Source: a virus
DNA: 26,635 nucleotides
Virus record (IMG/VR): IMGVR_UViG_3300017963_000681
Location: 1 to 26,635 of that record
Strand: one strand, 5' to 3'
A program made the translations under genes and the position numbers. Positions within the stretch are counted from its first letter, which is position 1; every line of letters begins with the position of its first letter. The notes under the pieces were generated by a model. The model worked only from the letters and a program-made list of their open reading frames with translations, had not been told where the DNA came from and did not search any database. Below are positions 4,470-25,621 of the stretch, one piece after another.

Positions 4470-4533
4470 CCATTCGTTCCTTCACGATAGGCGTCCTGCC
4501 TTTTTCGCAACACTCTTTTCCGTGCTTTTCCAT
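4390..4533 (-). CDS. Small Lys/Cys-rich ORF overlapping the chaperone start
   Basis: A 47-codon ORF begins at the ATG at 4533 behind a strong GGAGG seven bases upstream (GGAGGCTGACATG) and runs through the start of the 254-residue chaperone candidate in another frame. The product is basic with paired cysteines near both ends (KECCEKG; SCADCGD). An A7 run (TGAAAAAAAGG, around 4438-4445) lies in the overlap. A +1 or -2 slip there would join it to the chaperone frame. It may be a genuine small protein, a translational-coupling leader or the front part of a frameshift product. The Shine-Dalgarno sequence is the main support. Confidence 0.45.
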   Translation of the reverse strand: MEKHGKECCEKGRTPIVKERMDGTAKPATEKKARKAGSKKSCADCGD

Positions 4534-4544
4534 GTCAGCCTCCG

Positions 4545-5225
4545 TTAGTTCCGGGCGTAGAACCTGTGGGCCGCAACCGTGGTCCCATCAAATTCGCTGT
4601 TACTGTCCGTGGCCTGCGAGCTGTCCACCTTCCAGTTGGTCGTGGTAAGGCTCGGCGTGCCGATGTACTCAGCGGTGACATCCACCCGGAAGTTCTTGTT
4701 GGCACCCACCCAGTGCTCGTTGTCGCTGTCGTTCGCGTCAACGTGCTCGAGGCTGAACCGCACCGTTACGTTCGTCGGATCGCTGTCGCCGTCGGCGTTC
4801 GCCCAGATATCCGGGCAGCCGATGCCGCCAGTGCTCGCCGGGATAACACCCGACAAGTCCGCGTCGTCCAGTGCGGTGTGCGCGTTGTTGTCGTGGTTGT
4901 GGCCGGTCACGGTCACTTCCGGGTATGCGTCCAGCCTGAAAACCACCTGAATCTCGGTGACTGCCTTGCTGTCCTGCACCTCGCCAAACGTGGTGAGGAA
5001 CGTGCCGAAATCGGTTACGATATCGGTGCCGCAATACCCGTACACGCTCGTGTACTCGTTCCGCTTGTTAGACCCTGCATCCTCGCAACCGCCGGCAACA
5101 TCACCGTCAGCGTCCTGCACCGTCGCGTAGTCCTGCAGGTCGTTGTTGGTGCTGCTCTGCTCCTCGAAATTCGCGCTCATCGCGAATTGGTCGGTGGCTT
5201 GCATATCAACTGATTTGTCTGCCAT
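4545..5225 (-). CDS. Major tail protein
   Basis: I take the ATG at 5225 as the start because GGAGG lies seven bases upstream; a longer reading adds nine residues without such a site. The 226-residue product is acidic and Asn/Asp/Thr-rich with beta-sandwich character, as in tail-tube proteins: TEIQVVFRLDAYPEVTVTGHNHDNN, VTVRFSLEHVDANDSDNEHW and a closing region NSEFDGTTVAAHRFYARN. It sits between the tail terminator candidate and the chaperone/tape-measure pair, the standard slot for the tube subunit. No signal peptide is present, in contrast with several head-region genes here. The role comes from position plus composition. Confidence 0.75.
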   Translation of the reverse strand: MADKSVDMQATDQFAMSANFEEQSSTNNDLQDYATVQDADGDVAGGCEDAGSNKRNEYTSVYGYCGTDIVTDFGTFLTTFGEVQDSKAVTEIQVVFRLDAYPEVTVTGHNHDNNAHTALDDADLSGVIPASTGGIGCPDIWANADGDSDPTNVTVRFSLEHVDANDSDNEHWVGANKNFRVDVTAEYIGTPSLTTTNWKVDSSQATDSNSEFDGTTVAAHRFYARN

Positions 5226-5238
5226 TGTCCGTCCTCCG

Positions 5239-5697
5239 TTAGTATTCGTCACTCCGGTTGTAGATCATCTCGCAACCGATAGTGACAATGTAACAACCCC
5301 GCACTTTTCCTTGGGAATTGGCGGGCACGAATGTATCGCTTTGCACGGTTGGCATCCCACCGCTCGCGATACGGAACCATTGCAGATGCTTTATGTGAAA
5401 AAAGTTCTTCTTTTCGCTCAATAGGTCAATGAGTTGGCTGGCCAGCTTCTGCGCATCAGCCCGCACCTGATAGCGCCCGCGGATCTCGCCGCCGATCCGC
5501 AACGATCCATAACACCCGTCACCCGCCCACGTACTGCGGGCATCACCGCCCCCAGTGTTCAGGCTCCAGCAATTCGTGACGCCCGGCGGCAGCATTCCAA
5601 GCCACGCGTTCTTGCCCTCGGTCGCGCCCGTCTTAGTGAGTAGCATGTCAAATACGATCCGCTCTGCGTCTGCCCAGGATGTCTCGGGATTCGCCAT
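5239..5697 (-). CDS. Tail terminator / tail completion protein candidate
   Basis: A 152-residue protein whose ATG overlaps the stop of the neck protein gene (TGATG), with GAGG upstream. It begins MANPETSWADAERIVFDMLLTK, a helical start similar in style to tail terminator proteins, followed by mixed alpha/beta sequence with Cys residues in GVTNCWSLNTGG, GDGCYGSLRIGG and GKVRGCYIVTIGCEMIY. The middle has a helix RADAQKLASQLIDLLSEKK. Such proteins cap the tail tube and join it to the head. Assignment depends on its slot between the neck protein and the major tail protein. Confidence 0.6.
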   Translation of the reverse strand: MANPETSWADAERIVFDMLLTKTGATEGKNAWLGMLPPGVTNCWSLNTGGGDARSTWAGDGCYGSLRIGGEIRGRYQVRADAQKLASQLIDLLSEKKNFFHIKHLQWFRIASGGMPTVQSDTFVPANSQGKVRGCYIVTIGCEMIYNRSDEY

Positions 5698-6188
5698 CAG
5701 CCCACCTCAAAAGTAATGCTGTCTTGTAGTTGTCCGGGGTTCAGTAAGGCGACGCTGTTTTTGCGCCCCTTTTCAGTCTTGAGCGTTTGCAGATATTCTG
5801 CCTTACTCATACTCCGCGGGGCGTAGTCCTTCGCAAGCGCAGAAGTAGTTAGCCCTACATCCGTCAATGCGTCCTTAAACGAATCGGTGCGCCCGCGGGC
5901 CGCCTCCCTGAACGCCCTTGAGAAACGGCGCGTAATCACGTCCTCTTTGTCCTCTATTGCGCGCTCAATGAATTCGTCATCAGCCTGCGGGCCTTTTGCC
6001 ACAGTGCCGACGCCGCGGTTTTTCCAGGTTTGGCCCTTTTCGTCGTGCATCTTCTTGGCATAGTCCGCGGCATCACTATTCATTGGCACATAGATATCCA
6101 CATGTGTGGGCCCGGCGAGCGCACTAACTACGCTGTCCGCAAATTTACGGAACGCACTATTATCGCCGGATATATCAACACCAATCAC
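5697..6188 (-). CDS. Neck / tail-completion protein (HK97 gp10-like style)
   Basis: A 163-residue protein starting with GTG at 6188, in a GTGA overlap with the preceding stop; a GGGGG stretch lies upstream. It opens MIGVDISGDNSAFRKFADSV and closes with LLNPGQLQDSITFEVG; the L-x-DSI-x-F-x-V ending is typical of the HK97 gp10-like and Mu-type virion morphogenesis proteins. The centre is strongly charged and helical (DDEFIERAIEDKEDVITRR), with a Lys/Arg-rich YLQTLKTEKGRK near the C-terminus. It would act at the head-tail junction. Family membership is judged from the C-terminal motif and gene order. Confidence 0.65.
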   Translation of the reverse strand: MIGVDISGDNSAFRKFADSVVSALAGPTHVDIYVPMNSDAADYAKKMHDEKGQTWKNRGVGTVAKGPQADDEFIERAIEDKEDVITRRFSRAFREAARGRTDSFKDALTDVGLTTSALAKDYAPRSMSKAEYLQTLKTEKGRKNSVALLNPGQLQDSITFEVG

Positions 6189-6748
6189 TGGAGGCCCCCA
6201 ACATACACGTCAAGAATGTTCGTCCACGCTGGACTGTTCGTGAAATACAGGATATCGCCCGTGCCAGCCGTCACGCCGTACACGTTCGTGCCCGGACACA
6301 TCACCATAAGCGTGGATTCCGGCCGAATGCTGATGCTCTGGTTCGTGCCGCCCAGCCATGTGGCCCATGAGTTCTTGATATTGCCCATCGTGACACTGCC
6401 GCGGTTTGCCGCTGGTGCGTTCACCTGGAGCCATTTCACGCCTGTAAGCGTCAACACCTGCCCGAATCGGTTGGTTATGCCGCCGGCGAGGTCGTACACG
6501 CTCTGCGCGCCGTCCGTGAGCCGTATCCGCGCACTCCAGATATGCTCAACCTGGTCGTCGCCGCGCCCCTCGGTCACGTTCCAGACCCGGTTACTGACAA
6601 ACTTCTCGTCTGTCTGAACACCGGACACGTCCGTGAATGAGTGTGTTATGCTCTGATTGACGTACAGATTGCCGGCAATGTTCGTGCTGGAACCGAACGC
6701 ACACGCCGCTATCAGCAAACACCCTGCTACTACTATACCTTTACGCAT
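6185..6748 (-). CDS. Exported (possibly lipid-anchored) structural-style protein
   Basis: A 187-residue protein with an N-terminal export signal: MRK, a hydrophobic core GIVVAGCLLIAACAF, then either a lipobox-like I-A-A-C (Cys16) or cleavage after AFG. AGGAGG stands seven bases before the ATG. The mature part is beta-rich and phage-structural in style, with ILYFTNSPAWTNILDVYVGG at the C-terminus and SVYDLAGGITNRFGQVLTLTG in the middle. It sits between the head morphogenesis and neck genes, so a cytoplasmically assembled decoration or fibre protein would be expected; a secretion signal is unexpected. Function unknown. Confidence 0.75.
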   Translation of the reverse strand: MRKGIVVAGCLLIAACAFGSSTNIAGNLYVNQSITHSFTDVSGVQTDEKFVSNRVWNVTEGRGDDQVEHIWSARIRLTDGAQSVYDLAGGITNRFGQVLTLTGVKWLQVNAPAANRGSVTMGNIKNSWATWLGGTNQSISIRPESTLMVMCPGTNVYGVTAGTGDILYFTNSPAWTNILDVYVGGLQ

Positions 6749-6769
6749 TATCGCGCCTCCTGTGGCCTC

Positions 6770-7735
6770 TCAGGCCGCTTTACGTTGCTTCTCTTTCGAT
6801 TCTTCTTCACGCTCAAGTGCTTTTTCGCCCATCTCGGTGCGATTATCGTCCACCACTGCCTCGCGCTCCTGCTCTTCCTCAAGCTCTTCAGGCAGGATAA
6901 CGGCCGTATAATGGATGCAATTCGGATGGAATAGCCCATCTCCCTCGGCCTCTGCCAGTGTCGGATAGCCGGGTGTCTCACCTGTTAATGAGACAATCTT
7001 CCCGTACCAACGCCAGCAGGGGTCGGGCGGTGGCGCTGTGGGCGGGCCGCCTGCAATCCGGGCGAGGTCATGGCCCTGCTCTATGACGGTGTCATTGTAA
7101 GACTCCCGCGCCACACGCGCCACCGTGGTGCGAGCGAGCATGTTGAAATAGTTCTGCGGTTTCCACGCCCTGCCGGCGCTGTCGATAAACTTCCAGTCAG
7201 GCCGCGCCGCTGTCACCCGCGCAAGCAGCTCTTTCTGCTGGTCGCGGATACTCGTGCCAACGATATTGGCCTTGCGGAACACGTCTGTCACCGCGCCTCG
7301 GATGAAACGCTCGTCCTGCGTGGCAAGCCCGGTGGTCGCCGTAAACGCGAGATTCGGGTTGTCCGGGTGCACAAATGCAAGATAATCGTCCAGATGCTTG
7401 CGGCTGAACGTCTCAAAGGTCACGTTTCGCTCGCTCACCGGCAGATCGCTTATCCCGAACTTGTGCCATTCTTTTGCCGTCGCCGTGGTCATTTTCCTGT
7501 TCCATTCGTCGATATTGCCGCCCATCTCCTGGTACAGCCCTGCTATGTCCCGATACAGCACATCCCTGAAGCGCGCCGACGTGGCAAACTTGCCTGCCCG
7601 CGCCGCCTCAAGGATCCGCGCATCCACCACCGCCTTGCTCGAAAGCAGGATCGCACGTATCCGCTTCTGGTCACGCTCAATCCTGCGCCGGATAAACCGC
7701 TTGCGCTGGCCCCGCTTTGACGGATCTGTCGGCAC
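6770..7735 (-). CDS. Phage head morphogenesis protein (SPP1 gp7 / Mu gpF type)
   Basis: A 321-residue protein starting at GTG 7735, one base after the adaptor gene's stop, with GAGGG upstream. The N-terminus is very basic (RGQRKRFIRRRIERDQKRIR) and the body is helical. The C-terminal half holds the pattern expected of minor capsid proteins of the SPP1 gp7/Mu gpF superfamily: ARTTVARVARESYNDTVIEQG followed by PCWRWYGKIVSLTG and HPNCIHYTAVI, resembling the Cys/His end of that domain. The last 50 residues are Glu/Lys-rich coiled coil. It would bind portal or scaffold during capsid assembly. Here it lies after the capsid gene, not between portal and scaffold. Confidence 0.75.
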   Translation of the reverse strand: MPTDPSKRGQRKRFIRRRIERDQKRIRAILLSSKAVVDARILEAARAGKFATSARFRDVLYRDIAGLYQEMGGNIDEWNRKMTTATAKEWHKFGISDLPVSERNVTFETFSRKHLDDYLAFVHPDNPNLAFTATTGLATQDERFIRGAVTDVFRKANIVGTSIRDQQKELLARVTAARPDWKFIDSAGRAWKPQNYFNMLARTTVARVARESYNDTVIEQGHDLARIAGGPPTAPPPDPCWRWYGKIVSLTGETPGYPTLAEAEGDGLFHPNCIHYTAVILPEELEEEQEREAVVDDNRTEMGEKALEREEESKEKQRKAA

Positions 7736-7736
7736 A

Positions 7737-8129
7737 CTATGCCCTCACAAATTCGATCCGGTTCCATCCCATCCACCGTATCGCCTCTGGCGTTATCTGG
7801 CGCATCGTGGCGCGTATCTGCGTGGGCTCATTGTCGGGCCCGGTAACATCATAGTTGATCGCGCTCGTCTCGGCATTGGCCCGGTCGGGATTAGTGCTCG
7901 CAACATGCAGCGCCTGTTCGTAAAGCGCATAATCCTCGCGGATATCATCGTTGCCGGAACCACTGGCCGGCTCGTCAAGCGTTGACCCCTTGGCCCGCTC
8001 CAGGATGGCCTTGGCGTAGTTCACAGCCGCGCTGCGCTCGTCATCGTCAAACGTGTTCCACTTGTTCGCGGCCGGATGCTTGCCTACCGCAAAATACAAG
8101 TCCGCACCATCTTTTGTGAGGTCGCCCAT
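7737..8129 (-). CDS. Head-tail adaptor / connector protein candidate
   Basis: A 130-residue acidic protein, ATG at 8129 with AAGGAG six bases upstream. The helical N-terminal part reads WNTFDDDERSAAVNYAKAIL and is followed by REDYALYEQALHVASTN, matching the bundle of helices seen in gp6-type head-tail connector (DNA packaging) proteins that dock under the portal. The C-terminus has ITPEAIRWMGWNRIEFVRA. It follows the capsid gene and precedes the head morphogenesis gene, a normal slot for the adaptor ring. No enzyme motif is visible. The assignment rests on helix pattern and location. Confidence 0.65.
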   Translation of the reverse strand: MGDLTKDGADLYFAVGKHPAANKWNTFDDDERSAAVNYAKAILERAKGSTLDEPASGSGNDDIREDYALYEQALHVASTNPDRANAETSAINYDVTGPDNEPTQIRATMRQITPEAIRWMGWNRIEFVRA

Positions 8130-8132
8130 GTC

Positions 8133-8243
8133 CTACTCCTTGGGAGCTGCGGGTTTCTTGGCCTTCTTCGATTTAACCTGCTTGTTTGTGGGCATCGGGG
8201 GCAGGCCCACTTTCGCCTTCGCTGTGTAATTGCCAGTTCCCAT
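8133..8243 (-). CDS. Small basic protein after the capsid gene
   Basis: A 36-codon ORF with ATG at 8243 and GGAGG eight bases upstream, ending three bases before the adaptor start. The product begins MGTGNYTAKAKVGLPPMP and finishes in a Lys-rich tail with KSKKAKKPAAPKE. Small Lys/Pro/Ala-rich proteins next to capsid genes are common in phage head operons, but no function can be given. The strong ribosome site and tight spacing make it a likely real gene. Confidence 0.65.
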   Translation of the reverse strand: MGTGNYTAKAKVGLPPMPTNKQVKSKKAKKPAAPKE

Positions 8244-8265
8244 TATGTGTCCTCCTGTACTGACA

Positions 8266-8294
8266 GGCGGGCGGGGGATTACACCCCGCCCACC
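8266..8294. other. GC-rich hairpin just after the capsid gene
   Basis: GGCGGGCGGGG at 8266-8276 pairs with CCCCGCCCACC at 8284-8294, with one mismatch and a seven-base loop. It lies between the major capsid stop and the next small gene. No T-run follows on the minus strand, so it is not a standard intrinsic terminator. It could stabilise the capsid mRNA 3' end or attenuate downstream transcription. Confidence 0.5.
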
Positions 8295-8308
8295 CGCATT
8301 AGTCGTTA

Positions 8309-9169
8309 CTAAGTGGCAACAACCGTCGAGTTGTACTCAACGTCAATCACCGCACTGGAGCGGTAGATGTTGTGGCCTGCACGGAGCCTGCCGCGGTAGA
8401 GGTCGGCGAACCGGCCCTCTGCGCGCATCTGCTCAATGCTCTTCGGGTCCACCTGCACGCCCAGCGCGAAGCCGTCGCCAACGAGACCGGCAATGCCGTG
8501 GGTCGTTGAGGAGACTGTTGCGCAGTTGTTGCTGATGAACACGTTCCACCCGCCATACACGAACGCATTGCTGCGCCCCTGTGTCAGCACGCTGTCACCA
8601 AGCGCGGAATCCTTGCCGCCGGTGTACGTGATGACCGCCTCTTTGAAGCCAGACGGGGCAACCAGGTACTTTGAGGAAGCATCAGGCCAGTTGAGGTCTT
8701 TTGCCGCCTTGTCCAGCTTGCCGAAGAATGCCGGTACTTCTGCACAGGTCGTTTTGGTGAACTGCCAGTCGGTCCCGCCGTTGTCGAAGTTCGACCCCGC
8801 AGAACCATGCAGTGCCAGCATGGCCGTGTCCAGCGCATCCGAAAGGCGCTCTGCACCCCTGCGGATATACGTCGGCATGTAGTTGATTGTGGTTTCGACG
8901 CGGTTTGAATCGTAGTCGATCAGCTTGAACGCCTTGTCGAAGTTCACCGTGATTTCAGTATCACTGTCGGTGAGATCGTCATAGGTCAGATCAGCGGAAT
9001 CGTCCACGTCGGCCACGCTCACGTCGGAAGCTGCCACGATATGCCACTTGTCGCCGGCAGTATCCATGATCAGGTTCCGGTTAGCGAGCCGCGCCATAAC
9101 CGCGGTCTCGTCAAAAAGGGCAACAATCGTGTTTGCCCACAGTTCTTTCTGTACATAACTCAGTGCCAT
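8309..9169 (-). CDS. Major capsid protein (HK97 fold, P22-coat-like)
   Basis: A 286-residue protein with GGAGG before its ATG. It starts MALSYVQKELWANTIVALFD, a typical opening of P22-coat-like major capsid proteins, with ETAVMARLANRNLI, then TEITVNFDKAFKLIDYD, a helix AERLSDALDTAMLALHGSAG, the P-domain stretch KYLVAPSGFKEAVI, VYGGWNVFISNNC and a late AGLVGDGFALGVQVDPKSIEQMR. The order of spine helix, P-domain and late beta strands fits the HK97 fold. Scaffold lies two genes upstream, as expected. It lacks any signal peptide, unlike its immediate upstream neighbours. Confidence 0.88.
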   Translation of the reverse strand: MALSYVQKELWANTIVALFDETAVMARLANRNLIMDTAGDKWHIVAASDVSVADVDDSADLTYDDLTDSDTEITVNFDKAFKLIDYDSNRVETTINYMPTYIRRGAERLSDALDTAMLALHGSAGSNFDNGGTDWQFTKTTCAEVPAFFGKLDKAAKDLNWPDASSKYLVAPSGFKEAVITYTGGKDSALGDSVLTQGRSNAFVYGGWNVFISNNCATVSSTTHGIAGLVGDGFALGVQVDPKSIEQMRAEGRFADLYRGRLRAGHNIYRSSAVIDVEYNSTVVAT

Positions 9170-9181
9170 TGGTGTTCCTCC

Positions 9182-9568
9182 TTAGTTATTGGCCTGTGCC
9201 ACCTCAACCCACACGCTGGTCTGCAACGCGTAGAGAAGGATGGAATCGTACTGGCCCAGGGTCGTGTTTCCGCTCAGTTCGAGGTTGCCGCTGTCGTTCA
9301 GCACGACATTGGTTGCAACCGCGTTGACTATGAGCAGATACTGCCCTTCGGCGCGTGCGTTACCTACTGCGCAGGTGACAACATGCCCGAATGACATTTC
9401 GATAGATCCCACGTCTGCCGTGAGCGTGCACGCATTGCCGGAGCCAGTCCGGGTCTCGTGCACATAGCCGCCCTCGCGACTTTGTGGGCTGTAAGTGCCT
9501 TGTGCCATCACAACCACCGCAATGGTGAGTGCAACAGCGCAAGTTAACAGTGTTACTACTTTCTGCAT
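9182..9568 (-). CDS. Secreted decoration/fibre-like protein
   Basis: A 128-residue protein, ATG at 9568 with AAGGAG six bases upstream. Residues 1-22 form a signal peptide (MQKVVTLLTCAVALTIAVVVMA) with cleavage expected near AQG. The mature protein starts GTYSPQSREGG, a motif also found in the next gene, and then shows beta strands, with a C-terminal TLGQYDSILLYALQTSVWVEVAQ that resembles ends of trimeric decoration or fibre domains. It lies directly between the major capsid gene and another secreted protein. A capsid accessory role would be usual at this spot; why it is exported is unclear. Confidence 0.72.
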   Translation of the reverse strand: MQKVVTLLTCAVALTIAVVVMAQGTYSPQSREGGYVHETRTGSGNACTLTADVGSIEMSFGHVVTCAVGNARAEGQYLLIVNAVATNVVLNDSGNLELSGNTTLGQYDSILLYALQTSVWVEVAQANN

Positions 9569-9577
9569 TGCATCTCC

Positions 9578-10354
9578 TTAGAGGAACAAACCGATGTAGT
9601 AGTTTGTACCGTTGATTTCAACAGTCAGCTTGGCCGCGTTGGTTTGATACGTACTCGCGTCCTCGCCAATACAGGCCGCCGTGGGTCCACTGAACGTGAA
9701 CACCGTGCTCACGTCCTTGCCTGTGGCAGTCGTTATGGTCGCAAAACTGGCGTTGGTCTGTCCTGTCCCAACCGTTGCCGCTATCGAATCCTCGACCGTT
9801 ACTGCGCCGGTATGTGTCCACGCACCAGCAATCGTCTCGGTCGCGGACTTGTCAACGAGGTTGGCCGCTGTGATGCCGCCGATCTCGTTGCCTACAACGT
9901 CGCCCTCAACGTCAATCCCGCTCGAGTCCATGACTAGCATATTGCTGTCGGTGCCCGCTACCGGAATCTTGAATTGGACTGTGGCATCGGTCGTTCCATC
10001 GTCTGCATCGGTACAATCGACATTGATATCCAGGTACACCTCTGCGGTGCCGCCCGTGTCGGTTGCCACAAACTGCATGCCAATATCATCGCCATCTGCC
10101 GTTGCCGCTTCGCCGCTGATGACCCGCAGGTTGCCCGCGTCCGCGCCTGTCGCGCTCAGCGTAGCGCTGAACGAGTTGGTCGCATCGCCGTCAATAACCA
10201 CGTCCGAGTCGAACGTGATAGAGCCTGCGTCCGTCAGTGTCTTGTTCTGCAGGGTGTTGGTCCCCTCGATTGACACCGGCGTGTAGTTGCCATCTGCGAA
10301 CACAACGGATACCGCACTGATTACAACGAGTGTTGCAAGTATGATTTGTCGCAT
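9578..10354 (-). CDS. Secreted tail-fibre-like protein
   Basis: I choose the ATG at 10354, in a TAATG overlap with the scaffold stop and with GGAG just upstream. The 258-residue product has a signal peptide MRQIILATLVVISAVSVVFA with a clear A-x-A-like site before DGNYTPVSIEG. The mature protein is Thr/Ala/Asp-rich and fibre-like: NTLQNKTLTDAGSITFDSD, then repeated short strands, and SATETIAGAWTHTGAVTVEDS, phrases common in phage fibre stems. The C-terminus is AKLTVEINGTNYYIGLFL. It sits between scaffold and capsid genes. Secretion of such a protein is unusual for a capsid-module gene. Confidence 0.75.
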   Translation of the reverse strand: MRQIILATLVVISAVSVVFADGNYTPVSIEGTNTLQNKTLTDAGSITFDSDVVIDGDATNSFSATLSATGADAGNLRVISGEAATADGDDIGMQFVATDTGGTAEVYLDINVDCTDADDGTTDATVQFKIPVAGTDSNMLVMDSSGIDVEGDVVGNEIGGITAANLVDKSATETIAGAWTHTGAVTVEDSIAATVGTGQTNASFATITTATGKDVSTVFTFSGPTAACIGEDASTYQTNAAKLTVEINGTNYYIGLFL

Positions 10355-11013
10355 TATTCTGCTCCGTTCTGCGAGACCGCCGCCCATGCTGAATCCAAAT
10401 TGTCAACAAGGTTCTTGCCCCGCAATTGTGTTGCTTGTTCTGCCGTCATGGTCCCGCCTTCGGGGATGTTCATTGTCTGGTTTTTCTTTGAGCCTACACC
10501 GCCCTTTTTGTCTGCCATTATGTAGCTCGGACGCTCTTTCAGCGCCGCATCAAGCGCCGCCTTGGCCGCCTTTTCATCGCTCAGGTCAACCCCTTCGAGC
10601 TCACGCGACACAAGCGCCAGCGAGTCTGCCGCAGGCACAAGCTCTCGGTTCCAGCTTATTTCGCTGTGCAGCTTCGAGATAATGCCGTCTTTCTGCATCT
10701 TCGCTATCGTCCCCTGTGCTTCGTCACGCTCTCTGGACAGCGTGTCAAGTTGCGCCTGCAGTTTTTCCATCTGCTTGGCCGTCTTCTCGACTTCGCTCAT
10801 GTCCTTGTTCTCGAGGTCTTCCTTTGCCTGCCGGAGTTCTTCGACCTGCTCCTTGAGCTCTTTCAGCGCGTCCTTGTCCCTGTTGCGGGCGTGGATCGCG
10901 TTGTCTCGCTCTTTGCTGGCCTTCTCGATTTCCGTTGTGATGGCGCCCAGAATCGCTTCCGTCTTCTCATCGTCCAGACCTTCTACCCCACTCAGCATCT
11001 CTTTGAAGTCCAT
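10354..11013 (-). CDS. Capsid scaffolding protein
   Basis: A 219-residue protein with a long central coiled coil (about residues 30-110: repeated KDALKELKEQVEELRQAKED-type heptads), flanked by an acidic N-terminus MDFKEMLSGVEGLDDEKTEA and a C-terminal region with GTMTAEQATQLRGKNLVDNLD. Length, charge and coiled coil match phage scaffolds that guide major capsid assembly, and position shortly before the capsid gene supports this. It lacks a protease motif. The gene runs straight into the secreted fibre-like gene through a one-base overlap, so both are probably translated together. Confidence 0.8.
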   Translation of the reverse strand: MDFKEMLSGVEGLDDEKTEAILGAITTEIEKASKERDNAIHARNRDKDALKELKEQVEELRQAKEDLENKDMSEVEKTAKQMEKLQAQLDTLSRERDEAQGTIAKMQKDGIISKLHSEISWNRELVPAADSLALVSRELEGVDLSDEKAAKAALDAALKERPSYIMADKKGGVGSKKNQTMNIPEGGTMTAEQATQLRGKNLVDNLDSAWAAVSQNGAE

Positions 11014-11049
11014 GACTTCTCCTATTGCGGGTAACGCCCCGCCACGACT

Positions 11050-11128
11050 GCCTGCTTCAACGGCGGCAGGCTCGCCGACTGCGATCCCTTAGCGCCCGGT
11101 CGCTGGGCGAGTGCCCCACAATGGGGCA
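11050..11128. other. Three consecutive hairpins in the gap before scaffold
   Basis: The gap 11014-11133 has no gene. It contains GCCTGC/GCAGGC (11050-11071), CGCCC/GGGCG (11093-11109) and TGCCCC/GGGGCA (11112-11128). On the minus strand they follow the decoration-like gene and precede scaffold. None has a T-run. Possible roles are RNA processing or partial attenuation between the portal and scaffold/capsid parts of the operon. Confidence 0.4.
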
Positions 11129-11133
11129 AATTG

Positions 11134-11796
11134 CTATTCCTCAAACCAGTCGAACTGGTAGTCAAATGCGGTTGCCGACCCAGCCACGCGGTTCTCTACC
11201 GTCAGCGAATACACGGTGTTGCTCTTGAGTATCCATCCGAGTGAGTCGTTTATGTCGCCGCCCGCAGTTCGGCCAGAACCAAGGCGCACGCCCCATATCC
11301 GAGTGCCGTTCGTTACCCCTGTCGGCGACGAGTATATCGAAATCGTGGTGCCCACGCCGGTCAGTGACAGGTCGCGATTATAGACCGTGACCGCTGACCC
11401 GGTTGACGCGTAGGTCGTATCCTTGAATGCCACAAGATCACTCTCGCCCTCTGCCGCAAACGTGACAAACAGGTGCGCATTGCTCGGGGTGTTTGCCGTG
11501 ACTACCAGGAATGTGTTGCTGCCGCCGTTGGCTACGTCAACGAAGTCCTTCAGGTAGTACACCTCGCCATTGTGCACGCGCTCGTGGGCCTTGGCTATCG
11601 TCACAAGCGAGTTGTCCTCGATATCTGCCACGTCGCCTTCAGCATCACGCACCTGCGATGACACCCACAGCTCGTCGTTGGTCACCGTGGCCCAGCCGCC
11701 GCCAGCCTTGCTCTTAACCCGCACGTCGCTCACGCCCTGCGCCGCCACGACGCAAGCCCAGCACATCAGCACCATTATCACTCCAGCTTTCTTCAT
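11134..11796 (-). CDS. Capsid decoration/head-fibre-like protein with a signal peptide
   Basis: A 220-residue protein; ATG at 11796 overlaps the portal stop (ATGA). Residues 1-20 are a signal peptide (MKKAGVIMVLMCWACVVAAQ) with cleavage near VAA-QG. The mature part follows a layout I know from a widespread phage capsid-accessory protein: an N-terminal strand, AHERVHNGEVYYLKDFVDV, then AHLFVTFAAEGESDLVAFKD, VYNRDLSLTG, a GWILKSNTVYSLTVENR strand and an aromatic/acidic ending FDYQFDWFEE. That protein normally lacks a leader. Its location between portal and scaffold fits a head protein. Family match is from memory of the pattern, not a search. Confidence 0.75.
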   Translation of the reverse strand: MKKAGVIMVLMCWACVVAAQGVSDVRVKSKAGGGWATVTNDELWVSSQVRDAEGDVADIEDNSLVTIAKAHERVHNGEVYYLKDFVDVANGGSNTFLVVTANTPSNAHLFVTFAAEGESDLVAFKDTTYASTGSAVTVYNRDLSLTGVGTTISIYSSPTGVTNGTRIWGVRLGSGRTAGGDINDSLGWILKSNTVYSLTVENRVAGSATAFDYQFDWFEE

Positions 11797-13382
11797 TCTC
11801 CATCCTCCATAGGTAGTTGCGGGACGCGTGCCACAGCGTCCTCCATGTTGTTGATGCTCTCTTTTGCCGCCTCTAATTGCTCATCAGTCAGCGCCACGCC
11901 CATAGCCTCAAGCCCTTCCACGATGTTCGATAGCACCAACCTCTGCACCTCAACCGGCATACTGACGTTGGACAGCATCACGTATGCCTGCATCTGCTTC
12001 ACAAAGTCGCGCGCGCCAAAGTCGGTCGGATACACCGGCTCCCACTCGGCAAACTGCGGATCTATGATCTTGCTGATTTGCACAGCCTCGCGCTCGGCCT
12101 CCTCCAGCACCTGGGCCCGCTCGCGCAGCCCCTGTTCGACCTCAAGGTGATCGAACGCCTTGGCCTCGGCCGTCTGGCTGGCCCTTGACTCTGTGCGGAG
12201 CAACAGGCCCGCAGTCTCGAATAGCTCTTTCTTGAGGTATTCGGTCTCGGACCGCATTGAATCCAACGGCGCCGATTCGGGCATAATCACGCCGGGGGGC
12301 TGCTCCCCATCGCCCACCAGGATCGCGTCGTGGTTGCCAATAGCCATGCCGACCCGGTCGTTCTGGATGGCCTTGGTCTTTTGGTCAATGAATTGGTCAA
12401 GGTATGACTGCGGGAAGTATCGCTGCGGGAAAACGCCCTCAAAGTAGTTCTGTCGGTTCGCGCTCTGCAGGTCCATAATAGTCTTCTGGATGCCCTCGAG
12501 ACTGTCGAATATATGAGGATCGGCAGTGATGACGCCCGCGGCCACAAAGGGCACAATACCGAAGCTGTGCGGCATGGTTTCCTGCCTGACGATCTCGTCT
12601 TTACTGCGGCCGTTCTTGCCATCGCCATAGATGTACGTTGTCACATCGCGCTCAGTCCACAGCCACCTGCACCGGCTACAATTGCGCGCCTGCGTGGCAT
12701 CCATGCTGTCCATCTGCGTGCCTTCCAGCAAAAGCCATTTCAGATTGCCCAGATCGTCATAATGCCAGTCCACCACTTCGAGCGCAGTGTAGAGCTGCCA
12801 GTACGGCCGGATCTTCTCGCGGTTTACGTCTGCCTGGGTCGTGCTGCTGGTGACCACGGGCGCGTCGATGCCTATCCAGCACCACCCGCAGGCCGTTATG
12901 AGCTCGGACGCCTCGCGCATGAACGCATCCACTGACTGCCCCTCGCGGTTGATATCCTCGTCAACATCCTCGCTTATGCCGTCACGCTTAACGCCTGGCC
13001 CAAACACGAACTGGTTGATCTTCAGCGCCACCCTGGTGAGGTAGGGGACAACGTGCGTCTGCTCGCGCCTGCCCTGGATGTGCCGCCCCTGCCTGTTCTG
13101 GCCGCCCTCAAACATCAGCTTTGGTTCACCGGGGAACCGCGCCAGCCTTGCGTTCACGTAAGGGCGCCCGCCGCGCAGGCCGAGAATGTTGGTAATGAGC
13201 TGTTGCTCGCGAACTGCGTAAATCGGGTGTTTTCGGCTGCGGATGACCGCCTGCTCTGGGGTCTCGCTGCCCTTGCGCTCCGGCGAGTCGTCGCGCGGGT
13301 CGCGCACTTGCAGTATCGTGGTCTGGGTTGGTGAGCGGTCAAAACTGCGCTCGCTTGAGTTGAGCCCGGTATAGTCGGCCAT
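11793..13382 (-). CDS. Portal protein (SPP1 gp6-like / DUF4055 style)
   Basis: A 529-residue protein, ATG at 13382 with GAGG upstream. It has portal features in order: N-terminal arm, AREQQ-type helix region with YAVREQQLITNILGLRGG, NARLARFPGEPKLMF, clip/wing region, a long helix with EGIQKTIMDLQSANRQNYFEGVFPQ, then TEYLKKELFETAGLLLRTESRASQTAEAKAFDHLEVEQGLRER (residues near 385-430) corresponding to the stem and crown helices. The C-terminus is acidic. It forms the dodecameric DNA channel that binds the terminase. A dedicated promoter and repeat array lie about 150 bases upstream. Confidence 0.82.
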   Translation of the reverse strand: MADYTGLNSSERSFDRSPTQTTILQVRDPRDDSPERKGSETPEQAVIRSRKHPIYAVREQQLITNILGLRGGRPYVNARLARFPGEPKLMFEGGQNRQGRHIQGRREQTHVVPYLTRVALKINQFVFGPGVKRDGISEDVDEDINREGQSVDAFMREASELITACGWCWIGIDAPVVTSSTTQADVNREKIRPYWQLYTALEVVDWHYDDLGNLKWLLLEGTQMDSMDATQARNCSRCRWLWTERDVTTYIYGDGKNGRSKDEIVRQETMPHSFGIVPFVAAGVITADPHIFDSLEGIQKTIMDLQSANRQNYFEGVFPQRYFPQSYLDQFIDQKTKAIQNDRVGMAIGNHDAILVGDGEQPPGVIMPESAPLDSMRSETEYLKKELFETAGLLLRTESRASQTAEAKAFDHLEVEQGLRERAQVLEEAEREAVQISKIIDPQFAEWEPVYPTDFGARDFVKQMQAYVMLSNVSMPVEVQRLVLSNIVEGLEAMGVALTDEQLEAAKESINNMEDAVARVPQLPMEDGE

Positions 13383-13534
13383 TGTATTACCTCACTTCAG
13401 AAAGCCAGCACAATATAGAGCGCCGAAGATGGAGTTGATATGTCCAGAAATGCCGGATACAGCGTGTGGCTATTTGTGGCGCTAGACGGCAGAGAAAAGG
13501 CATAGCATCCCCGGTTTTATATTCTCAGGGACAT

Positions 13535-17974: not shown

Positions 17975-18178
17975 TCAGTCAGCACTCGGGTTCTGCGTGG
18001 CCTTACCACGCACTTGCGGGGTTTCAAATCCCGGCCATATTCTCAGTTTGCATGTCTTAGCGTAGTCGGGTTCGGCAAACAGGCATTCGTGCTGGTAAAA
18101 ATGACTACAAGCCGTATTGTGACAGGGTAATGTGTACTTCAATCTCGACAGCGATCCAGACTCAATCCGCTCAGTCAT
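17975..18178 (-). CDS. Small Cys-rich hypothetical protein
   Basis: A 67-residue protein; ATG at 18178 overlaps the end of the Lar-like gene by eight bases and has GGAG/GAGG-type sequence upstream. Cysteines and histidines appear as PCHNTACSHFYQHECLF and, later, KTCK, which could bind one zinc ion. The N-terminus MTERIESGSLSRLKYTL is basic. It may be a small regulator or an accessory to the zinc protein before it. Confidence 0.5.
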   Translation of the reverse strand: MTERIESGSLSRLKYTLPCHNTACSHFYQHECLFAEPDYAKTCKLRIWPGFETPQVRGKATQNPSAD

Positions 18179-18731
18179 CCTCTGCTCCTGTCAGGGCTTG
18201 GCATCCTTCACCGCCTTTCTCGACTGCGCGGGTGTTCCACCGTTCACGGCATTTCTGTTCAGCCCATTCGTATGTATGTCCGCGACCGTTCAGGATGCCT
18301 GCACGTTGATGCGCGAAGCATCCGAACGTCGTGCAGGCAATCTCGCACACCTGCTCCTTGACGTGATCGTTGCCGATGCGTTTGACCTCCGGCGTTGCCC
18401 CACAGAACGGACAGGGCTTCAGCTCCCCCGCCTCGTCATGCACCCGCGAAAGTTGGGTCGTGCTCATATCATCTTCAAGCGCATGGTTAGGATCGCCACA
18501 GCCGCACTCGCATCTCGCCTCGTCATGCTCTTGGGGGGCGGGGGTTGTGTCTTTCAGTTTCAGGCTCAACTCGTCGGGGTCGAGGCAAAAGACAGGCCCA
18601 CGGAATCCGCAAGCACACCAAATGCCGTATGTATCCTCGTACCCTTCTGGTCCATGCAATTCGTGACCACATTCCTTTTCAACGTGGTCATACGGACACC
18701 GATATTTCGTGTAGTCGGCATGATCTTTCAT
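18171..18731 (-). CDS. Lar-like restriction-alleviation zinc protein
   Basis: A 186-residue protein, ATG at 18731 with GGAGG seven bases upstream. The C-terminal part has the Lar-type pattern LKPCPFCGATPEV, a distant second Cys set (EVCEIAC...FGC here VCEIACTTFGC) and a closing EQKCRERWNTRA. Lar of the Rac prophage modulates type I restriction-modification. An N-terminal extension of about 100 residues contains CGHELHG, WCACGFRG and CECGCGD, a further zinc-binding region. With the phage methyltransferase it could help evade host restriction; that is inference from family resemblance. Confidence 0.68.
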   Translation of the reverse strand: MKDHADYTKYRCPYDHVEKECGHELHGPEGYEDTYGIWCACGFRGPVFCLDPDELSLKLKDTTPAPQEHDEARCECGCGDPNHALEDDMSTTQLSRVHDEAGELKPCPFCGATPEVKRIGNDHVKEQVCEIACTTFGCFAHQRAGILNGRGHTYEWAEQKCRERWNTRAVEKGGEGCQALTGAEDD

Positions 18732-18734
18732 CAC

Positions 18735-18979: not shown

Positions 18980-19537
18980 TCACTCATCCTCCTGCCGGGG
19001 CGGGGCTTCAACACACTGCTCCGACTTCTTCCATCGCCGCACAGTCTCGCTCAAGACTTCACGCCGCTCGATACGCTCCTGCTTGCCGTCCAGCCAGAAC
19101 GTGTAGACGGTGATCCGGGTGATGGTGGTTGTCTCGGTTTTCTTGGTGGCGGGAACAGCCTGCAAGTTAAGGGGTGTCCCGTCTCCGAAATAAAACCGAG
19201 CATCGAACGGGTTGTTTACCGGCACCCCATTATCCCGCTCCACCACATTCGTCACCACGCTCACGGTCTTATGGACGTTCGAGATCGCAACACCCGACTC
19301 AAAGACCGCCCCGGCGCGGGTCAGATTGTTTGTTGCACTTTGCGCGTCTACGTTGGCAACGAAATCCACAGAGGCTTCAAAGTTTTTATTAGTAAGCTCT
19401 GCCATGACATCCCTGAGATTCTCAAGCTCGCGTTGCATACGGCGTAGTGATTCAACATACTCGTACCAGTCGAACTCCTGCCCCCACGCCACGCTCGCCA
19501 CCATCAGCACCGCCACCAGTATCAGTATTCGCTTCAT
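18980..19537 (-). CDS. Secreted coiled-coil protein (spanin-like at most)
   Basis: The start at 19537 has GGAGG five bases upstream. The 185-residue product has a signal peptide MKRILILVAVLMVASVAWG, then QEFDWYEYVESLRRMQRELENLRDVMAELTNKN, a coiled coil over about 30 residues. The central part is beta-like with many Val/Asn/Thr, and the C-terminus is charged (KQERIERREVLSETVRRWKK). It would act in the periplasm or outside. Size and coiled coil recall outer or two-component spanins, but there is no lipobox and no lysis partner beside it. A large palindrome precedes the gene. Confidence 0.65.
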   Translation of the reverse strand: MKRILILVAVLMVASVAWGQEFDWYEYVESLRRMQRELENLRDVMAELTNKNFEASVDFVANVDAQSATNNLTRAGAVFESGVAISNVHKTVSVVTNVVERDNGVPVNNPFDARFYFGDGTPLNLQAVPATKKTETTTITRITVYTFWLDGKQERIERREVLSETVRRWKKSEQCVEAPPRQEDE

Positions 19538-19556: not shown

Positions 19557-19588
19557 TGTGATATATCGTGCATGCACGATATGTCACA
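19557..19588. promoter_or_regulatory. 32-base near-perfect palindrome
   Basis: The core ATATCGTGCATGCACGATAT (19563-19582) is a perfect 20-base palindrome. After a single T/G mismatch it continues with TGTGA (19557-19561) and TCACA (19584-19588). It covers the stop of the SPFH gene and lies 20 bases before the next start. There is no T-run, so an operator or an RNA-processing hairpin is likelier than a terminator. Confidence 0.6.
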
Positions 19589-20117
19589 CTTCCTCCTGCT
19601 TGCTCGTGTGTATCCCCATCACCCGCACGGCACGGTGCCGCACAAATGTCGTAAAGTATATCTGCCGGATGCTCAGGCCCCACCCCTTGCACACCGCCCG
19701 CAACCGCGGCAGGATATCCTCACCCATCCGCTGGGTGTCCCGGCAGTCGTCCCATGTGCGCCGGTTGATATACTGCTCAATCTCGCCCTGGAGCGCGTTG
19801 CCCAGCGTTTCCTCGTAGCTGTCAACCTCGTACAATGCGCGTAGTGGGCTCAGGATCCGAAACGCGAGCGCCGCATCTATGGCGATGGCCACGTTGTCCT
19901 TCGTGGTGACTGATTGCGTCTGGTACTCCACCACCCGCGGGGCACAGGACTCGTATGTCATGTCCACGCACCAGCTCCAGACGGGGTACAGGCCCGGCCC
20001 CACCTCATGCCGCCAGCGGCCGGCAATCACGTACACCCCGCGCTCGTGCGGCTCAATCGTGACCACACGGGGGAGCAGTTTCAGCAGGATTTCCCATAGC
20101 CTGTCAAGCCAGTTCAT
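19584..20117 (-). CDS. SPFH/band-7 (stomatin-prohibitin-like) protein
   Basis: A 177-residue protein with a short amphipathic or membrane-associating N-terminus MNWLDRLWEILLKLLPRVV and then a nearly complete SPFH domain: TIEPHERGVYVIAGRW, EVGPGLYPVWSW, QTQSVTTKDNVAIAIDAALAFRI, then YEETLGNALQGEIEQYI and LRAVCKGWGLSIRQIYFT. SPFH proteins form membrane-bound rings that organise proteases such as FtsH or microdomains. The coiled-coil tail usual in the family is missing, so this is a minimal version. It is coupled by ATGA to a small membrane protein upstream. SPFH proteins are uncommon in phage genomes. Confidence 0.82.
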   Translation of the reverse strand: MNWLDRLWEILLKLLPRVVTIEPHERGVYVIAGRWRHEVGPGLYPVWSWCVDMTYESCAPRVVEYQTQSVTTKDNVAIAIDAALAFRILSPLRALYEVDSYEETLGNALQGEIEQYINRRTWDDCRDTQRMGEDILPRLRAVCKGWGLSIRQIYFTTFVRHRAVRVMGIHTSKQEEV

Positions 20118-20274: not shown

Positions 20275-20481
20275 TTAGCCCTCCGCTTTAGCCACGATTA
20301 TGCCCAAAACAACAATGGCGGCCACTATAGCCAGAACAACCACCGCCGGCACCCATAGCGGCGCGCATATCCACCACCACGACCACGAAACCACGCTTGT
20401 CAACTTGAGCACCAAGAACACCATGAATAACAGCCCCCAAAACCCCACGCCGCCAACATTAACATTCCTATTCTCACTCAT
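20275..20481 (-). CDS. Two-helix membrane protein (Fragile-X-F-like)
   Basis: A 68-residue protein with two membrane helices, about residues 13-31 (FWGLLFMVFLVLKLTSVV) and 42-64, linked by WSWWWICAPLW. This matches the small phage-encoded transmembrane Fragile-X-F-like family, in which an LKLTGVI-WSWWWV-APLW pattern is typical; the function is unknown. It ends six bases before the 51-residue membrane peptide and overlaps the preceding gene by four bases. Its place suggests it belongs to the membrane cluster around the SPFH gene. Confidence 0.72.
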   Translation of the reverse strand: MSENRNVNVGGVGFWGLLFMVFLVLKLTSVVSWSWWWICAPLWVPAVVVLAIVAAIVVLGIIVAKAEG

Positions 20482-24964: not shown

Positions 24965-25621
24965 TCACAGCGGCAGAACCTCCTGCGCTAGGCGCCGGGC
25001 TGCGATCTCGCAATACTTCTCCTCGATCTCAATCCCGATTGCCTTCCGCTGTAGGTCTTTGGCGGCGCGGAGCGTGGTGCCAGAGCCCATGAAGGGGTCG
25101 AGGATGGTGTTCGCAACCCCCTTTTTGTCGGCCTGCACTATACACCACCGCATCAATTCTACTGGCTTCTGTGTTGGATGGACAGCACGCTGTCCTCTTT
25201 CACTGTCCTTGAATGCGCCACACCATTGATGGTCATATATCCGCAATGTGGATTGAAAATTATTCCATGCGCATTCTCCATCTGCATATCCATTATCGCC
25301 AGTTTTCTTGTTCCATATCATTGGGCCGCGACACTCTCCAAGCGATGCGGCCATGTAGTTGCCGCCCCAAACAACCCACATCGTTCCTGCGTGGATAACA
25401 TCCAAAAGCGTTTGCGTGTCTGGTCTTTTGTCCCACTGTGAAGCACTTTTATCTATGCTGTATATCGTATCTTTACCAAACATCTTGCCATCATCAACCC
25501 TCTTGAATATCCCATACGGCGGATCTGTCAGCACCAAGTCCACCCTGTCCAACGTCGGCAGGATTTCACGGCAGTCACCGTGGAAAATGGTTGCATAGTC
25601 GTCTTGGTAGTAGGGTGTCAT
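24965..25621 (-). CDS. Site-specific DNA methyltransferase (N6-adenine or N4-cytosine)
   Basis: A 218-residue enzyme with the catalytic DPPYG (33-37) near the N-terminus and DPFMGSGTT (175-183), the SAM-binding motif, near the C-terminus; this order defines the beta class of the N6/N4 methyltransferase family. GIEIEEKYCEIAARRL follows, the usual SAM-pocket helix. It modifies adenine N6 or cytosine N4 in an unknown target, probably to protect phage DNA. The start overlaps the SSB-like gene's stop as TGATG. No cognate nuclease is beside it, so it looks like an orphan methylase. Confidence 0.88.
   Translation of the reverse strand: MTPYYQDDYATIFHGDCREILPTLDRVDLVLTDPPYGIFKRVDDGKMFGKDTIYSIDKSASQWDKRPDTQTLLDVIHAGTMWVVWGGNYMAASLGECRGPMIWNKKTGDNGYADGECAWNNFQSTLRIYDHQWCGAFKDSERGQRAVHPTQKPVELMRWCIVQADKKGVANTILDPFMGSGTTLRAAKDLQRKAIGIEIEEKYCEIAARRLAQEVLPL

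Follow-up and report, generated by a model that had tools for sequence, protein, structure and literature searches.

Signal peptides in a phage head operon

The stretch of DNA analysed here, an IMG/VR virus record of 26,635 bases (hereafter the window), carries on its minus strand a phage head operon in which four genes, at 6185-6748, 9182-9568, 9578-10354 and 11134-11796, encode proteins with N-terminal leaders of the Sec type (Table 1). An earlier note on this sequence had claimed that four signal-peptide proteins are interspersed here with true head proteins lacking such leaders, and both halves of that claim held: the four open reading frames were recovered, each with a leader, and the portal, scaffold, capsid, neck and minor head proteins all remained unflagged. 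Leaders were called by a rule that asks for a basic n-region, a hydrophobic core free of charges and small residues at positions -3 and -1, and all four head-operon leaders show this signal peptidase I pattern. The leader of 6185-6748 reads MRKGIVVAGCLLIAACAFG; that of 9182-9568 (residues 1-22) reads MQKVVTLLTCAVALTIAVVVMA followed by QG, with the predicted cut between VVMA and QGTYSPQSREGG; that of 9578-10354 (residues 1-20) reads MRQIILATLVVISAVSVVFA followed by DGN, with the predicted cut between VVFA and DGNYTPVSIEG; and that of 11134-11796 (about residues 1-19) reads MKKAGVIMVLMCWACVVAA followed by QG, the predicted cut separating VVAA from Q.

Shine-Dalgarno sequences (AGGAGG, AAGGAG, GGAG and GGAGG) precede the leader ATGs, and two start codons overlap the stop codon of the gene ahead, that of 11134-11796 with the portal gene (ATGA) and that of 9578-10354 with the scaffold gene (TAATG). 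We conclude that translation begins at the leaders; these features speak against wrongly assigned start codons. Only in 9182-9568 could an alternative in-frame ATG, at residue 21, yield a product without leader, beginning MAQGTYSPQ, and no clear Shine-Dalgarno sequence is found there. The leader rule flagged four of the ten head-operon genes as compared with 49 of the 1,421 genes (3.4%) of all fetched loci (p = 2.5e-4), a conservative estimate because the background takes in leader-rich relatives. A count of the bacterial preference for Q at position +1 was dropped since the cut sites are too uncertain for counting.

Table 1. Features of the window, in descending order along the head operon, followed by a leadered gene outside it and the two motif sites
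Feature	Position	Strand	Remarks
Portal protein	11793-13382	minus	phrog_145; without leader; defines the clade
Leadered protein, portal-scaffold slot, 220 aa	11134-11796	minus	mature part related to phrog_5335 / VvAW1 gp15
Head scaffolding protein	10354-11013	minus	without leader
Leadered fibre-like protein, scaffold-capsid slot, 258 aa	9578-10354	minus	
Leadered fibre-tip-like protein directly ahead of capsid gene, 128 aa	9182-9568	minus	
Major capsid protein, type 1	8309-9169	minus	phrog_267
Small basic leaderless protein (MGTGNYTAKAKV...) adjoining capsid gene	8133-8243	minus	slot that holds MxYTP peptides in relatives
Head-tail adaptor-like (neck) protein	7737-8129	minus	called from position after capsid gene; no family match; without leader
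Minor head protein	6770-7735	minus	phrog_581, PF06152; without leader
Leadered single jelly-roll head protein, 187 aa	6185-6748	minus	phrog_22694
Tail completion-like protein	5697-6188	minus	
Leadered 185-aa protein, outside structural operon	18980-19537	minus	no known family
YTPVSIE motif, predicted mature N-terminus of 9578-10354	10265-10285	minus	
YSPQSRE motif, predicted mature N-terminus of 9182-9568	9473-9493	minus	

Recurrence in a clade and a motif linked to capsid type

Searches with portal alignments gathered about 50 contigs of one clade, with portal identities to the window of mostly 31-45%; four weak portal rows (22-32% identity) were left out. Leadered head-operon proteins occur in 20 of the 30 rows of the portal tree (the window, L141, L142, L143, L144, L147, L026, L033, L159, L164, L169, L171, L175, L178, L183, L184, L185, L188, L191 and L193), with L033 being the same contig as L161, and with L171, whose open reading frame has 44 residues, and L193 having joined the leadered set after the tree had been labelled, on a weaker Shine-Dalgarno score. 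Most commonly the leadered gene comes next after the capsid gene. The window and L169 have it in the scaffold-capsid gap instead, and the portal-scaffold gap is a further site in L026 and the window. Among distant capsid relatives only one of 48 loci has a leadered gene 4 kb or less from the capsid gene, as judged by a stricter leader rule that missed L143 and L147, and on this count the idea that leaders are generally enriched around capsid genes was dropped. Two portal-alignment scans of genome contigs for prophages found none, and a collection scan with the capsid recovered only L002.

The predicted mature N-termini of 9182-9568 and 9578-10354 carry a common motif, Y[TS]Px[ST]xE (YTPxSxE for short). 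In the 548,112 residues of the called genes of the first set of loci the pattern occurs five times, twice in the window (once in each of these two proteins), twice in L033 and once in L147, and all five occurrences lie directly behind leaders. The motif was found in the same position in the later-added L144, L159, L164, L169 and L171, with variants behind the leaders of L183 (DYTPASAES), L184 (DLTPRSAEGG) and L185 (QYTPVKRED). A scan of IMG/VR DNA for the motif, which requires particular codons and is thus no census, returned five matches, four of which read as noise and one of which is a head protein without leader (L152, beginning PDYTPVSVEG). An alignment of the N-terminal motif lacked the stringency needed to scan the collection, and a tblastn search of cultured phages with 9578-10354 gave no match.

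Four types of capsid protein can be told apart in the clade, with unconvincing BLAST matches between them (best E 0.002), and the motif follows these types: YTP is present on the leadered proteins of all 11 type-1 lineages, including L184 and also L185, the capsid of which was confirmed as type 1, and of none of the eight lineages of other types (Fisher p = 1.3e-5, or 1.2e-4 with L184 counted against the association, both values being guides only, given the kinship among lineages and the linkage between adjacent genes). In place of YTP the type-2 lineages L141, L178 and L191 have a common FYD, with L175 having neither, and the type-3 lineages L142 and L143 have a common start, TI...SxFxP. Small leaderless proteins rich in Lys and Pro (31-57 residues) that adjoin the capsid gene begin with MxYTP, and they do so only together with type-1 capsids: MGDYTPNT in L159 (MGDYTPNTKYKH), MDYTPNT in L162, MSDYTPTT in L171, MAYTPYC in L185, MSYTPKN in L144 and MAYTPKP in L002, the start in L147 (MTNPDPTYTPND) being a less clear case. 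In most of these peptides the distance from the motif to the N-terminus equals that of the leadered proteins after cleavage, which lends independent support to the predicted cut.

The C-terminal parts behave differently, as they are exchanged across capsid types. A C-terminal domain with the pattern GQLLxG...TTTNGWxxxS is common to L142 (type 3), L191 (type 2) and L159 and L164 (type 1), where it stands on differing N-terminal motifs, and both 9182-9568 (43% identity) and 9578-10354 (38% identity over 66 residues) have their C-terminal domains in common with the leadered protein of L175 (type 2). This spike-like L175 homologue passes the cut-off of 25 for the phage depolymerase C-terminal domain PF25692 with a score of 26.5, and 9182-9568 stays below it with 16.7. 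Fibres anchored in the virion are usually built in this way, with a docking end that is conserved and a tip that is exchanged, and the fibre- or decoration-like character that had been ascribed to the leadered head-operon proteins was upheld. The leader itself varies: the mature parts of the L141 and L178 proteins are 59% identical, and the leader is of the peptidase I type in the former and has a clear lipobox (LAGC) in the latter. As the leader type switches while the mature part is kept, comparison of these proteins suggests that export itself is probably what is under selection.

Leadered proteins of further loci were recorded alongside. In L026 a leadered protein of 452 residues (4809-6167) matches cyanophage tail-fibre-like proteins with its C-terminal part (phrog_8198, E 5e-30), another case of a leader on a family whose members match without one. 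Two contigs from the same sample, L060 and L076, have matching downstream genes and different leadered proteins after the capsid gene (6834-7529 and 4485-4922, respectively), which looks as if the post-capsid slot gets swapped; the L060 protein is homologous to that of L141 (E 6e-12). L033 encodes three further leadered proteins downstream of the tail genes (10850-13398), one of them with YTP and a weak match to phage cement proteins. In L102, a distant capsid relative, two adjoining leadered fibre-like proteins of 446 and at least 587 residues (9938-13043) follow an 891-residue gene product, and one of the pair has a beta-helix-like repeat.

Leaders on otherwise leaderless virion-type families

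The protein encoded by 6185-6748 matches the phrog_22694 profile over residues 45-176 (E 3.1e-22). Related genes stand in the head operons of Microcystis phage Mae-JY04, Streptomyces phage Keanu (gp9) and Bradyrhizobium phage ppBeUSDA76-1, and the start Met of their products aligns directly after the leader of 6185-6748; the family median of 168 residues equals the length of 6185-6748 minus its leader. Only L040 has a leader among 80 homologous IMG/VR loci, and in a 58-row alignment of the family the rule flagged two rows, the window and L040, leaving 56 without leader. In the family tree the sister of L040, L041, is leaderless (support 99/96), so that the leader was gained at least twice in this family; the window row sits on a long branch and its placement is unsure. 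An AlphaFold2 (AF2) model of 6185-6748 is an all-beta jelly-roll with a mean predicted local distance difference test score (pLDDT) of 88, where residues 1-20 score about 50 and the remainder 82-96, the leader sitting outside the fold. Fold matches of the model are single jelly-rolls, including the PRD1 penton P31, and unnamed Caudovirales proteins, and comparison with folds of the Protein Data Bank (PDB) gave weak generic beta folds only. The leader contains a possible lipobox, IAAC (pattern [LVI][ASTVI][GAS]C close to the end of the h-region), alongside an alternative peptidase I site, and from this pattern the protein may be a lipoprotein.

The protein from the portal-scaffold slot, 11134-11796, matches the phrog_5335 profile (E 8e-8), and its mature part is homologous to the leaderless gp15 of Vibrio phage VvAW1 (28% identity over 153 residues). 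A collection scan with this single protein gave no matches, its AF2 model, based on three sequences, is poor (pLDDT 39), and a search of solved structures by sequence with the 6185-6748 and 11134-11796 families found none, a single match with E 0.61 not being meaningful. In the same slot L155, L157, L173, L179 and L180, from the low-GC leaderless subclade, have a leaderless protein of 179-325 residues. Judged from these alignments, 6185-6748 and 11134-11796 are members of leaderless virion-type families to which a leader was added. The earlier note had held that homologues starting after the hydrophobic segment would refute its reading; such homologues exist for these two proteins, but they do not refute it, as here a leader was added to leaderless families, and leadered proteins in the capsid slot are the rule in the clade.

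The earlier note had further extended the theme to two genes outside the head operon. For 18980-19537 the leader was confirmed, but the gene lies outside the structural operon and shows no link to the capsid motif, and it may encode an unrelated envelope protein. The product of 3-1349 (given as 1-1349 in that note) has a hydrophobic N-terminus of 20 residues without net positive charge, which is more like a signal anchor; it is a large protein encoded on the minus strand after the tail genes, belongs to no family and is cut by the contig end. Adjoining 18980-19537 is a gene for an SPFH / Band 7 protein (19584-20117, minus strand; PF01145, E 2e-15), and a small transmembrane protein is encoded close to it at 20275-20481, the group being a possible membrane-related cluster. 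The window also encodes a protein with a Lar-like restriction alleviation domain (18171-18734, minus strand; PF14354) and an N6/N4 DNA methylase (24965-25621).

Proposed loading of exported proteins onto heads and its alternatives

Tailed phages are assumed to build and decorate their heads entirely within the cytoplasm. The reading we favour, tentatively and at slightly less than an even chance, is that the leadered proteins are head fibres or decorations processed by signal peptidase, which have a capsid-docking N-terminus, are exported first and are loaded at or after lysis; of the options raised before, decoration of virions after they leave the cytoplasm is the best supported, and on secreted decoys and host-surface modification the results speak neither way. 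It draws on features read from sequence, namely the leaders, the start sites, the motif after the predicted cut, the link to capsid type, the exchange of C-termini and the gain of leaders in the jelly-roll family, from which we infer export, cleavage, capsid docking and timing. Each protein would be built of three parts, a Sec leader, a mature N-terminal motif specific for the capsid type (YTPxSxE for type 1) and an exchangeable C-terminal beta domain. Expressed late, the proteins would pass through Sec and be cleaved by signal peptidase I, exposing the motif at the N-terminus, with some lineages using a lipoprotein leader instead, and would gather in the periplasm or envelope until the inner membrane fails at lysis, when the freed heads would meet them and be decorated via the motif. 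The broader proposition, that virions of this clade are completed outside the cytoplasm, with Sec export, a processed docking end and head loading only when lysis mixes the compartments, seems to us somewhat less likely than not.

Several observations weigh against this interpretation. Leaders are absent from L002, L162, L165 and the low-GC subclade, a supported group of seven (GC content 0.32-0.42), and a leader is therefore not essential to the head type. Neither 6185-6748 nor 11134-11796 has the YTP motif. The closest cultured portals are only 20-26% identical, the clade being uncultured. Motif and capsid may also travel together through linkage; arguing against linkage as the sole cause, the motif also stands ahead of the capsid gene in the window and L169 and within the tail region of L033.

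The alternative that survives best, although we consider it unlikely, is that the proteins are exported and never join the virion, working instead in the envelope or the medium, whether as decoys, masks of receptors, enzymes that degrade glycans or blockers of superinfection, and being made from recycled virion domains. The leaders look real, one of them with a possible lipobox, the L175 homologue has a depolymerase-type C-terminal domain, and known phages keep exported host-modifying genes among their structural genes, lambda lom being an example. Moreover, phages of Porphyromonas gingivalis encode secreted Q-rule proteins of unknown function (PMC10367356). However, this alternative does not explain why the mature N-terminus tracks the capsid type while the C-terminus swaps, why the same N-terminus stands on small leaderless peptides next to the capsid gene, or why placement beside the capsid gene is constant. 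It is less probable still that the hydrophobic N-termini have no role in export and that the proteins stay in the cytoplasm, the N-termini acting in head assembly or being removed by a protease at maturation. Such an arrangement would agree with the cytoplasmic site of head assembly and with capsid leaders of P. gingivalis phages that were read as being cut by a prohead protease (PMC10367356), but it sits poorly with the basic n-region, hydrophobic core and small -3/-1 residues, often with an aromatic residue or Met at -2, with the change to a lipobox leader in L178 and with the 56 leaderless jelly-roll relatives, and none of the window's genes was recognised as a prohead protease. Finally, ordinary lineage-specific envelope or lysis-related cargo that lies in the head operon by chance is very improbable: unrelated accessory genes elsewhere in the window and the leader of 18980-19537 would fit it, but comparison within the clade had already weakened it, with the same slot being used over lineages of such divergent portals, and it accounts neither for homology to leaderless head-operon families nor for the capsid-linked motif.

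Were loading of exported proteins onto heads to be confirmed, the secretion pathway of the bacterium would make part of a virion, to be joined to the rest at lysis. This would bear on how virions acquire surface proteins that need periplasmic folding or modification, on whether assembly still goes on at lysis, and on annotation pipelines in which leadered phage proteins are treated as host cargo. A single peptide motif and a single capsid type offer a compact test. As far as could be found, no post-lysis maturation step has been described for tailed phages, and we found no report of leadered decoration or head-fibre proteins in the literature, where coverage of subscription journals was limited.

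Among known systems, lambda lom and Bor and T1 cor are exported morons, leadered genes near structural genes, and to our knowledge such morons are neither homologous to virion families nor specific for a capsid type. The phrog_22694 proteins of the three named phages are like mature 6185-6748 in size (about 168 residues) and are encoded between capsid and neck genes, but they belong to the leaderless majority of their family, the leaders of the window and L040 having been gained separately. VvAW1 gp15 differs from 11134-11796 in lacking a leader and in being located by terminase genes. Cement/decoration proteins of PF09956 and the MxxYxP head proteins of actinophages lie in the head operon, as here, but are without leaders; no window protein matches PF09956, and the best clade member, a leadered L033 protein, reaches 19.9 bits, below the curated cut-off of 24. 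The nearest precedent found is provided by the Nixviridae prophages of P. gingivalis, whose capsid genes and genes without known function bear signal peptides (PMC10367356). There, unlike in the window, the capsid protein itself is leadered, a prohead protease is proposed to cut it, and no capsid-linked mature motif is described; what these prophages have in common with the window is that signal peptides stand on phage genes, some of them structural (PMC10367356).

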